From the NCBI GenBank assembly GCA_016788945.1, contig JAEUSA010000376.1:1-10743 (forward strand): 10,743 nt of DNA. The letters run 5' to 3'. Shown piece after piece: positions 3,643-4,425 of the stretch. The notes beneath the pieces are model-generated. The model did not search any database. It was not told where the DNA came from and was given only the letters and a program-made list of their open reading frames with translations. Both the position numbers and the translations under genes were made by a program. Within the stretch, counting starts at the first letter, position 1, and every line of letters begins with the position of its first letter. The DNA comes from Leptospiraceae bacterium (GTDB lineage: Bacteria > Spirochaetota > Leptospiria > Turneriellales > Turneriellaceae).

Positions 3643-3661
3643 AAAACCCTTTGTTTATATT
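3634..3661 (+). promoter_or_regulatory. Weak candidate promoter for the tRNA cluster
   Basis: TTGCGG (3634-3639) and TATATT (3656-3661) are separated by 16 nt and resemble sigma-70 -35 and -10 elements. Transcription would begin near 3668, about 80 nt before tRNA-Ser(UGA), and would have to pass the terminator-like hairpin at 3696-3715. On the opposite strand TATAAA (3659-3654) could serve as a -10 for the ABC-RNase H-helicase operon. This is based on motif resemblance only. Confidence 0.2.
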
Positions 3662-3666
3662 GACGC

Positions 3667-3695: not shown

Positions 3696-3715
3696 AGACC
3701 GCGAGGTCTTTTTTT
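3696..3715 (+). terminator. Short Rho-independent terminator-like hairpin
   Basis: AGACC (3696-3700), loop GCGA, GGTCT (3705-3709), then an unbroken T run to 3715. The 5-bp stem is short, but the GCGA loop belongs to the stable GNRA class and the T run is immediate. On the plus strand it stands upstream of the tRNA genes with no plus-strand gene before it in the divergent region, so it may stop stray antisense transcription or attenuate the tRNA operon. It does not work as a terminator on the minus strand. Confidence 0.5.
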
Positions 3716-3746: not shown

Positions 3747-3833
3747 GGAGGAGTGGCAGAGTGGTCGAATGCGGCGGTCTTGAAAACCGTTAGGCCTTCA
3801 CGGGTCTCGTGGGTTCGAATCCTACCTCCTCCG
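3747..3833 (+). tRNA. tRNA-Ser(UGA)
   Basis: Class II tRNA of 87 nt, reading UCN codons. Acceptor strands GGAGGAG (3747-3753) and CTCCTCC (3826-3832) pair perfectly, with discriminator G at 3833. The anticodon loop CTTGAAA (3779-3785) gives anticodon TGA at 3781-3783. The long variable arm expected of tRNA-Ser is present, and the T-arm GTGGG/CCTAC encloses TTCGAAT. CCA is not encoded (CAC follows the discriminator), so CCA-adding enzyme must finish the end. It is the first of four tRNAs in the same direction. Confidence 0.96.
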
Positions 3834-3839
3834 CACTAA

Positions 3840-3880
3840 CCCTGCGCCATACGCCGTCTGAGGCGGAGTATCGTGCAGGG
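3840..3880. repeat. Imperfect long hairpin in the Ser-Ser tRNA spacer
   Basis: CCCTGC (3840-3845) pairs with GCAGGG (3875-3880), and inside this ATAC pairs with GTAT and CCG with CGG, with a short mismatched internal loop. It begins 7 nt after the mature 3' end of tRNA-Ser(UGA). No T-tract follows, so it is not a terminator; it could mark a processing site in the tRNA precursor (inference). Confidence 0.5.
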
Positions 3881-3888
3881 GAATTAGT

Positions 3889-3917
3889 GGAGCGGTGGCT
3901 GTGATCACGCGGTTTGC
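3889..3917 (+). pseudogene. Possible remnant of a tRNA-Ser(GCU) 5' half
   Basis: GGAGCGGTGGCTG (3889-3901) is identical to the first 13 nt of tRNA-Ser(GCU) at 3984-3996, and the bases before it (TTAG) are nearly shared too. Farther on, GCGG and TTTGC (3909-3917) match in order the GCGG and TTTGC around the anticodon stem of the intact gene, with indels between. The downstream part does not match and no cloverleaf can form. A decayed or truncated duplicate is the simplest reading; the first 13 nt are solid, the rest may be chance. Confidence 0.45.
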
Positions 3918-3929
3918 GACGCAAACCGC
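3909..3929. repeat. Perfect 9-bp inverted repeat
   Basis: GCGGTTTGC (3909-3917) and GCAAACCGC (3921-3929) are exact reverse complements around GAC. An 8-bp palindrome GTGATCAC (3901-3908) touches its left side. The transcript would form a strong small hairpin in the Ser-Ser tRNA spacer. Confidence 0.75.
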
Positions 3930-3933
3930 TCTG

Positions 3934-3967
3934 GTCTCCGAAGCAAAGCGGAGACGTGTGAAGCACG
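3934..3967. repeat. Two more adjacent inverted repeats in the Ser-Ser spacer
   Basis: GTCTCCG (3934-3940) and CGGAGAC (3949-3955) form a perfect 7-bp stem around 8 nt. It abuts a smaller CGTG/CACG stem (3955-3958 with 3964-3967). With the hairpins at 3840-3880 and 3909-3929 they fill most of the 150-nt spacer. No T-tracts and no open frame are seen. Confidence 0.6.
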
Positions 3968-3983
3968 AAACCGACGCGACTTA

Positions 3984-4072
3984 GGAGCGGTGGCTGAGTG
4001 GTCGAAAGCGGCAGTTTGCTAAACTGTTGTACTAGGTAACTGGTACCGAGGGTTCGAATCCCTCCTGCTCCG
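3984..4072 (+). tRNA. tRNA-Ser(GCU)
   Basis: Class II tRNA of 89 nt, reading AGC/AGU. Acceptor GGAGCGG (3984-3990) pairs with CTGCTCC (4065-4071) with one G-T wobble, discriminator G at 4072. The anticodon loop TTGCTAA (4016-4022) gives GCT at 4018-4020 on the stem GCAGT/ACTGT. The long variable arm lies at about 4028-4047, and the T-arm GAGGG/CCCTC encloses TTCGAAT. CCA is not encoded (CAG follows). A 13-nt copy of its 5' end lies about 95 bp upstream. Confidence 0.96.
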
Positions 4073-4079
4073 CAGTGTT

Positions 4080-4124
4080 TTTGAGCAAATACATGCGCGT
4101 AACGCGCTCATGTATTTGCTCAAA
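4080..4124. repeat. Long hairpin in the Ser(GCU)-Thr spacer (20 bp with 2-nt bulge)
   Basis: The 15-nt arm 4080-4094 (TTTGAGCAAATACAT) is the exact reverse complement of 4110-4124. It is capped by GCGCG (4095-4099) and CGCGC (4103-4107) around loop TAA, with TC bulged at 4108-4109. It starts 7 nt after tRNA-Ser(GCU). No T-tract follows on either strand, so it does not look like a Rho-independent terminator. It may be a processing or RNA-stability element, or the product of a template-switch event. Confidence 0.85.
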
Positions 4125-4151
4125 GCAAAATGGTCTACGCAACTTGGTTTG

Positions 4152-4196
4152 ACCGACTGAGCTACGTGGGCTGTAGGCCCACGTAGCTCAGTCGGT
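4152..4196. repeat. Perfect 20-bp inverted repeat that includes the 5' end of tRNA-Thr
   Basis: Positions 4152-4171 are the exact reverse complement of 4177-4196, the first 20 nt of tRNA-Thr(GGU), across a 5-nt loop TGTAG. The left arm is therefore an inverted partial copy of the tRNA (acceptor 5' strand plus half of the D-arm). The match stops abruptly at 4152. In RNA the 20-bp hairpin would compete with the tRNA fold and hide the RNase P cleavage site at 4176/4177 in its loop. Confidence 0.93.
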
Positions 4197-4249
4197 AGAG
4201 CATTTCCATGGTAAGGAAAAGGTCACCGGTTCGATTCCGGTCGTGGGCT
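4177..4249 (+). tRNA. tRNA-Thr(GGU)
   Basis: 73-nt tRNA reading ACC/ACU. Acceptor GCCCACG (4177-4183) and CGTGGGC (4242-4248) pair perfectly, discriminator T at 4249. The anticodon loop ATGGTAA (4208-4214) on the stem TTTCC/GGAAA gives GGT at 4210-4212. The D-arm (GCTC and GAGC) and the T-arm ACCGG/CCGGT with TTCGATT are intact. CCA is not encoded. The gene looks functional, but its 5' 20 nt are mirrored immediately upstream, which could interfere with folding of the precursor. Confidence 0.96.
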
Positions 4250-4255
4250 AATGGT

Positions 4256-4286
4256 GCAGCTGGCGCGGAAAATCCGCAAAGGCTGC
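4256..4286. repeat. Two-tier hairpin in the Thr-Trp spacer
   Basis: GCAGC (4256-4260) pairs with GCTGC (4282-4286), and inside it GCGGA (4265-4269) pairs with TCCGC (4273-4277) around loop AAA, with a 4x4 internal loop between. It lies between the tRNA-Thr 3' end and the tRNA-Trp 5' end. No T-tract follows. Confidence 0.6.
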
Positions 4287-4296
4287 GCTGGAGTTT

Positions 4297-4367
4297 AGGG
4301 CAGTAGTTCAACGGTAGAACGACGGTCTCCAAAACCGTTAATGAGGGTTCGATTCCTTCCTGCCCTG
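4297..4367 (+). tRNA. tRNA-Trp(CCA)
   Basis: 71-nt tRNA reading UGG. Acceptor AGGGCAG (4297-4303) and CTGCCCT (4360-4366) pair perfectly, discriminator G at 4367. The anticodon loop CTCCAAA (4327-4333) gives CCA at 4329-4331. The T-arm GAGGG/CCTTC encloses TTCGATT. The 3' CCA is not encoded. A tRNA-Trp just before secE-nusG is a widespread bacterial arrangement, so it is probably co-transcribed with the genes downstream. No promoter stands out in the 58 nt between it and secE. Confidence 0.97.
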
Positions 4368-4425
4368 AAGTAAACGTAGCGGCACGGGATGCGCAATCTC
4401 TGCTGGTACAAATTAGAGGAGCACT

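Follow-up and report, generated by a model that had tools for sequence, protein, structure and literature searches.

A perfect, very stable hairpin that takes up the 5' half of a tRNA, apparently a single-copy one, ought to be harmful; even so, tRNA genes preceded by such an arm occur in several genomes of one bacterial genus. The case considered here is a tRNA-Thr(GGU) gene in a Turneriellaceae contig of 10,743 nucleotides, the whole of which is called 'the window'; an exact inverted copy of the tRNA 5' end lies directly upstream of the gene. How does such a copy come about, why does it still match its tRNA, and does it serve the gene? Seven genomes of one genus were compared, labelled G000 (the genome of the window) to G006; we infer that the genus is Turneriella.

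The inverted copy upstream of tRNA-Thr(GGU)

The gene is the third of a cluster of four tRNAs, with the following features.

3747..4368, + strand: tRNA cluster Ser(UGA)-Ser(GCU)-Thr(GGU)-Trp(CCA), followed by secE-, nusG- and rplK-like ORFs
3889..3983, + strand: element before tRNA-Ser(GCU), consisting of a direct copy of tRNA nucleotides 1-13 (3889-3901) and then hairpins
4080..4124, + strand: second long inverted repeat, in the Ser-Thr spacer, with 20-nt arms that are 95% complementary and not tRNA-derived
4131..4143, + strand: possible decayed direct copy of the tRNA 5' end, read by eye
4152..4171, - strand: left hairpin arm, inverted copy of tRNA-Thr(GGU) nucleotides 1-20 (20/20 exact)
4172..4176, + strand: 5-nt loop TGTAG between the arms (counterpart in G005, same orientation: TATCG)
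4176..4250, + strand: tRNA-Thr(GGU), the only one found in the assembly (ARAGORN; RF00005, 72.1 bits)
4177..4196, + strand: right hairpin arm, that is, tRNA-Thr nucleotides 1-20 (5' acceptor strand, 5' D-stem strand and D-loop to U20)

The three ORFs presumably are secE, nusG and rplK, names given by resemblance; the secE-like ORF is shorter than the length cut of our ORF list and was read from the sequence itself. A unit similar to the tRNA-Ser(GCU) element occurs in two tandem copies in G006. At the other end of the cluster, a terminator-like hairpin with a T-run (3696-3709) precedes the first tRNA and follows a TTGACG motif (3660-3665). G004 has a similar terminator-like hairpin at the matching position, and TTGACG-like motifs were seen by eye upstream of many tRNAs of the genus.

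An earlier note on this DNA had reported that positions 4152-4171 are the reverse complement of tRNA nucleotides 1-20, 5 nt away from them, and this was confirmed: nucleotide 1 of the tRNA is G4177 (Rfam match to RF00005 at 4177-4249). Complementarity between the arms is 100% over 20 nt with a gap of 5 nt, which is the near-adjacent arrangement by which template-switch inverted duplications are recognized. When the 101-nt spacer was shuffled 2,000 times with its dinucleotides preserved and compared with the first 30 nt of the tRNA, the longest inverted match was 10 nt, against 20 in the real sequence. The assembly, which is 94% complete, yielded 30 tRNA matches, including a single Thr(GGU) and one Thr(UGU). 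At the Rfam gathering score, the window contained four tRNAs only, and no T-box or other riboswitch family was found in the leader; a known riboswitch or T-box was thus ruled out.

The stretch further upstream may be a decayed direct copy of the tRNA 5' end, to judge from its letters: positions 4133-4143, GTCTACGCAAC, agree with GCCCACGTAGC at 7 of 11 places, and all four differences are transitions. In the survey scan described below, however, the direct-copy score of this leader was just 5. Direct-copy-like stretches are also found near the tRNA-Thr genes of G005 (GCCCATGTAGC, in a comparable position) and G004 (GCCCACATAGC, more distant).

The earlier note had expected the hairpin to be more stable than the acceptor stem and D-stem it replaces, and the predicted energies agree with this. 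Alone, the hairpin reaches -42.6 kcal/mol with 21 pairs, T4172 and G4176 being paired as well. Left free, positions 4125-4260 fold at -71.2 kcal/mol (z = -7.66); constraining them to keep the tRNA cloverleaf gives -47.3 kcal/mol, about 24 kcal/mol worse than the trapped fold. Positions 4131-4139 pair with the 3' acceptor strand of the tRNA in the best predicted fold. Eight other genes, chosen for carrying an arm, were folded as well, and in each of them, as in the window, the free fold was better than the tRNA-kept fold. The advantage amounted to 23.9 (window), 17.3 (G005) and 17.7 kcal/mol (G004) for the Thr genes, 19.6 (G002) and 4.3 (G006) for Met, 9.6 (G004, UCG), 13.9 (G005, UCU) and 5.1 (G003, ACG) for Arg, and 10.7 for Val of G006, the 'tRNA fold' being for some genes the free minimum of the tRNA and not a strict cloverleaf. 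According to these models, the arm would compete in the RNA with the acceptor and D stems of tRNA-Thr, with a probable effect on the tRNA, and a newly made tRNA-Thr should be trapped in the wrong shape unless the cell resolves the hairpin.

Recurrence at tRNA genes of the genus

The window's arm is not an isolated oddity: it is one real example of what looks like a genus-wide, recurring process. We surveyed 205 tRNA genes from the seven genomes, after merging identical copies (the fragmentary G002 contributes only 11 genes). An inverted or direct copy of the gene's own 5' part, with a score of at least 10, was present upstream of 30 genes: seven Met, four each for Asn, His and Val, three each for Ser, Thr and Arg, one Asp and one Ile. 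To estimate the background, spacers were swapped between different tRNAs, giving 754 pairs. Inverted scores of at least 14 were reached in 5/205 real gene-spacer pairs and in 0/754 swapped ones; at a threshold of 10 the figures were 16/205 and 9/754, and for direct copies at the same threshold 21/205 and 8/754. At an inverted score of at least 8, counted anywhere in the spacer, there is some background, 39/754 swapped pairs reaching it against 25/205 real ones.

Inverted copies scoring at least 8 within 35 nt of the tRNA were found at 19 of the 205 genes. For 14 of these arms the score is at least 10; the remaining five score 8 or 9, and a few of them may be chance matches. The arms end at nucleotide 11 (eight genes), 12 (one), 13 (three), 17 (one), 19 (five) or 20 (one), and none ends at nucleotides 14-16 or past nucleotide 20. 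They thus fall into two groups, nucleotides 11-13 (12/19) and 17-20 (7/19), which agrees with the view of the earlier note that the end at base 20 is no accident. In 5 of the 19 genes the gap between arm and tRNA is 19-30 nt long, and by eye most of these gaps hold a further small hairpin. A strict long-arm pattern (CCRACTGAGCTA, 17-40 nt, TAGCTCAGTYGG), which detects only tRNAs with that D-arm, was matched in three genomes, whether the search took in the 48 of the class or the 392 of Spirochaetota; all three belong to this genus, and the matches lie at Thr of G000, Thr and Arg(UCU) of G005, and Met of G002. The reversed pattern had no match in the same genome search. In G004, which has 38 tRNA matches, tRNA-Arg(UCG) carries an arm of 17 bp.

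Such recurrence bears directly on the possibility, raised in the earlier note, that a false inverted join was made during assembly. The window does come from a fragmented assembly of 465 contigs. However, the same arrangement is seen at Thr of G005 with another loop and another flank, at other tRNAs in G002 and G005, and in the 17-bp case of G004, taken to be the T. parva type strain, which was sequenced with two technologies and subjected to gap closure (PMC3746428). An artefact is therefore very unlikely.

Both direct and inverted copies of the tRNA 5' end are present in the leaders of several Met, Val, His, Arg and Thr genes. A fuller form was seen in the leaders of a number of Met, Val, His and Arg genes. 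It begins with a direct copy of nucleotides 1-11 and a short insert that starts with CCGAAGACGGAG or nearly so; most of these leaders then have a direct copy of about nucleotides 13-25, and all continue with an inverted copy of about nucleotides 11-2, a gap of 4-9 nt and the intact tRNA. The insert sits exactly between T12 and C13, with T12 kept, in four G003 leaders or copies (Asn, Val, Arg UCU and one Met copy); elsewhere, other G003 copies included, T12 is replaced by A. In some genomes such units are repeated in tandem, two or three times, at Met, Val, His, Arg and Ser genes.

At tRNA-Val(UAC) of G004 (L095, reverse strand, about 1580-2330), three tandem 'exploded' copies lie 3' of the intact gene; by our reading they contain, taken together, hairpins in the D-stem, the anticodon arm, the variable region and the T-arm. 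At tRNA-Arg(UCU) of G006 (L111, reverse strand, 1570-2022, at the start of contig G006:C2), two interrupted copies stand with the beginning of a third; each has an insert in the D-stem, and the array runs to the contig end. An intact gene stands beside most of the copies inspected; one exception is this array, truncated by the end of its contig, as G006 yielded no intact tRNA-Arg(UCU). Two further cases were noted. In tRNA-Arg(UCU) of G005 (L094, 1445-1519, minus strand), A3 is opposite C in the acceptor stem, and the matching G is found in the direct copy upstream; with the 3' acceptor strand, this upstream copy forms better pairs than the 5' strand of the gene itself. At tRNA-Leu(UAG) of G006 (L188, reverse strand, about 480-620), the tRNA 3' end recurs two times downstream, and hairpins separate the repeats; therefore tRNA 3' ends are copied too.

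The arm of the window has no double-hairpin insert inside it; the inserts of the other copies were analyzed as a group. With an expression requiring CCGRRGAC, so that constancy at this motif is partly built in, 26 inserts were gathered (24 distinct), of which 20 were compared after four repeats or near-repeats and two His inserts shortened by the search expression had been dropped. The MAFFT alignment is not structure-aware, and stems were instead counted per sequence. The first hairpin was predicted in 17 of the 20 and the second in 19, which gives a double-hairpin outline in many copies. Near the base of the second stem, inserts differ yet remain paired: the third pair is CG in 9, GC in 7, AT in 2 and TA in 1, the best register lying two columns earlier in 3/20 inserts, so that these tallies mix registers there.

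The exact core of the insert, TAGCWCCGAAGACGGAG, had 24 matches in 7 of 296 genomes of the phylum, these being the seven of this genus, and its reversed control had one match. None of the 24 is further than 459 nt from a tRNA gene, the pattern itself starting with the tRNA motif TAGC. The 12-nt core without its tRNA part was matched 2, 9, 3, 21, 17, 2 and 24 times in G000 to G006 and 0, 0, 0 and 2 times in four other genomes of the family, with 0-3 matches each for reversed controls; in G000 its reversed control was matched more often (3 against 2). Core matches are located in tRNA copies, in other palindromes, and in repeats away from tRNAs, some of which we take to be attC-like sites. At L277, L280 and L282, the core lies within other intergenic palindromes (CCCCCTCT/AGAGGGGG), and in two of them its edge may show a TCA duplication. 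In G004 (L293, 7026-11484) and G006 (G006:C1, about 300-329 kb), long palindromic repeats that are attC-like form arrays between ORFs; several of these repeats carry the same CCGAAGACGG mini-hairpins, and the arrays look like integron cassette arrays. A viral origin of the core was also considered: five exact matches were found in viral contigs, with unrelated flanks and no tRNA in the stretches inspected, and they were taken as chance.

Hairpin content was then compared between genera. Among leaders of up to 70 nt, 75/198 in the genus (7 of the 205 being too short) have a z-score below -3, against 5/39 in other genera (26 of 65 too short), a comparison group that is small and composed mainly of Thr, Trp and Ser genes. 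Perfect intergenic hairpins with arms of at least 12 nt number 38 in 34.8 kb in G004 (10.9 per 10 kb) and 15 in 23.9 kb in G006 (6.3), against 1 in 9.0 kb, 1 in 12.7 kb and 3 in 6.2 kb in three other genera (G011, G018 and G029), the last of which (4.8 per 10 kb) is close to G006; these counts are small, and the Turneriella stretches were chosen around tRNAs while most of the others were not. Within 200 nt of tRNAs, the density of perfect hairpins is 9 to 13 times that found elsewhere. This density mostly reflects intergenic DNA; in the intergenic counts, which rely on a crude longest-ORF mask for coding sequence, the genus is hairpin-rich generally, and a hot spot specific to tRNAs was rejected. 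Loss of the hairpin nuclease SbcCD is insufficient alone as a cause: SbcD had no match at the cut-off in the seven genomes of the genus, nor in four other genomes of the family including the hairpin-poor G011, an absence that is weakly shown, as the cut-off was reached in just 8 of 14 control genomes.

In one alternative explanation, tRNAs of the genus need a stable hairpin before or between them, for processing, insulation or termination; its sequence would be free, and the tRNA would simply happen to be one arm. Hairpin richness also holds for leaders without any tRNA-derived copy (both scores below 8), 56/158 of which have z below -3, and perfect hairpins occur in other spacers of this tRNA cluster in several species. 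However, a processing hairpin could not be chosen worse than with one arm reaching into the tRNA, and a free sequence does not account for own-tRNA matches of at least 14 that swapped pairs never reach. The excess over other genera is itself measured against the limited group described above, in a genus whose intergenic DNA is generally rich in hairpins. We regard such a spacer hairpin as improbable.

Upkeep of the arm and its possible origin

The tRNA-Thr arm is present in G005, altered in G004, and absent from G003 and G006, where unrelated sequence is found. The earlier note had held that unrelated sequence there in relatives, taken together with a normal tRNA-Thr level from this gene despite the hairpin, would remove a regulatory role; G003 and G006 agree with the first of these two points. 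No Thr(GGU) gene was found in the tRNA survey of G001 or of the fragmentary G002. The arm is likewise absent from tRNA-Arg(UCG) in G001 and from tRNA-Met in G000 and G005.

Where the arm is shared, it is kept closely. The part common to G000 and G005 is identical at 19/19 nt, while loop and flanks differ and the spacer outside the arm aligns poorly. Between the same genomes, only 72 of 166 fourfold sites of secE, nusG and rplK agree, which we read as near saturation. Neutral inheritance of the arm is unlikely for that reason, and chance was limited to 10 nt in the shuffles; an explanation by either is hardly credible. Something thus appears, from the sequences compared, to keep the window's arm matched to its tRNA. 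This upkeep does not seem complete. The tRNA-Thr arm of G004 carries its own tRNA's change at nucleotide 7, with one base lost and another changed; that of tRNA-Arg(UCU) in G005 has a mismatch to the tRNA at nucleotide 3 and a wobble at nucleotide 7; and that of tRNA-Arg(UCG) in G002 has drifted.

The left arm is probably, though by no means certainly, a fold-back (template-switch) duplication of the tRNA 5' end that has since been re-copied repeatedly from the tRNA. We infer the following route. A nascent DNA strand crossing the tRNA toward the leader would fold back just beyond nucleotide 1, copy itself as far as the D-loop (nucleotide 19/20), and then rejoin the template. Later fold-back events would re-copy the tRNA into the arm, so that the match is kept while loop and flanks drift. 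Such re-copying could keep the arm matched because one arm is a constrained gene and the two are nearly adjacent. The event would belong to a wider process at Turneriella tRNA loci, comprising partial tandem copies of 5' ends, fold-back arms, and insertions of small double hairpins into the copies. Template switching had been put forward in the earlier note as a single recent duplication. Copying of this kind fits best, but a single local event does not, since the process looks genus-wide and recurring and is accompanied by direct copies and small hairpin inserts. Recurrence at different tRNAs, every arm matching its own tRNA, supports fold-back; together with recurrent re-copying, it is the favored explanation for perfect arms, for presence and absence among species, for nested hairpins and for drifted loops. 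Plain fold-back leaves unaccounted for why long arms end at nucleotides 17-20 and short ones at 11-13, and selection would yield the same conservation of the arm as re-copying.

Selection is the basis of the alternative that the arm is part of an RNA switch, a structural switch having already been proposed in the earlier note. The arm would pair either with the upstream direct copy, freeing the cloverleaf, or with the tRNA, hiding the RNase P site, and a signal, a protein or the order of folding would choose between the two. The leaders of Met, Val, His, Arg and Thr genes that have direct as well as inverted copies allow two such exclusive pairings, and the Thr leaders of G000 and G005 have similar best folds, the upstream stretch pairing with the 3' acceptor strand in both. 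A switch explains the retention of the arm in G005 despite saturated fourfold sites, and the restriction of arm ends to the vicinity of the D-stem and to G18-G19, equally well as fold-back or better. The advantage of the free fold in the window and in the eight other arm-bearing genes is also in its favor. Against it, the same gene lacks the arm in some species (Thr in G003 and G006, Arg(UCG) in G001, Met in G000 and G005), the genes concerned have no amino acid in common, and the decayed upstream copy in the window would jam the switch shut. We consider a selected switch possible but rather unlikely.

More doubtful still is a specific version in which the leader would be a built-in maturation switch on several Turneriella tRNAs, the upstream copy of the acceptor 5' strand, the inverted arm and the tRNA forming two exclusive folds. 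In its extreme form, the best fold predicted for the window and for G005 would itself be used: the upstream copy would serve as 5' acceptor strand and the 20-bp hairpin as a giant D-arm, so that the tRNA would exist in a second form; the better-pairing upstream copy of tRNA-Arg(UCU) in G005 and the interrupted-only copies of tRNA-Arg(UCU) in G006 may be cited for it.

To return to fold-back with re-copying, the cell must then tolerate or resolve the hairpin, because a single tRNA-Thr(GGU) gene was found and is presumably needed. Either there is an unrecognized route by which such tRNAs are freed and matured, or tRNA genes are fold-back hot spots whose products are tolerated; both alternatives are testable in T. 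parva (type strain DSM 21527). A tRNA would moreover be an unusually good clock for fold-back copying, since one arm is held constant by function.

Comparison with known systems

Among the matches listed in a search of the open-licence literature, no paper dealt with tRNA-derived inverted leaders or hairpin-inserted tRNA copies in Turneriella. The closest parallel for the arm is quasi-palindrome correction, or template-switch mutation, in which inverted arms are made or homogenized by fold-back copying, one arm templating the other. The Turneriella case differs in that the arm is the 5' end of a tRNA, that many tRNA genes of one genus are concerned, and that the end positions are few and fixed.

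Small palindromes dispersed in a bacterial genome are known as REP/BIME and as Rickettsia palindromic elements. In the Turneriella inserts, by contrast, the stem sequence varies, and the tRNA-linked copies have gene-specific arms. REPs can be mobilized by Y1 transposases, and a Y1 transposase (PF01797) was found above the cut-off in five of the seven genomes of the genus, G002 and G003 being without it. A link between this transposase and the inserts is disfavored, because G003 has 21 core matches without PF01797.

Disrupted tRNA genes, whether split, permuted or intron-bearing, have their tRNA sequence interrupted. Turneriella resembles them in that tRNA sequence is interrupted and duplicated and that the leaders hold complementary segments; it differs in that an intact tRNA gene lies beside most copies.

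In outline, the inserts resemble the short single- or double-hairpin elements of fungal and sponge mitochondria, which occur in intergenic regions and rRNA genes, are possibly mobile and have no known adaptive function (PMC2800124); this is a likeness, not membership. Unlike the mitochondrial elements, the Turneriella inserts reside in a bacterial chromosome, where they are located near nucleotide 12 of additional copies of tRNAs as well as in palindromes of attC-like type.
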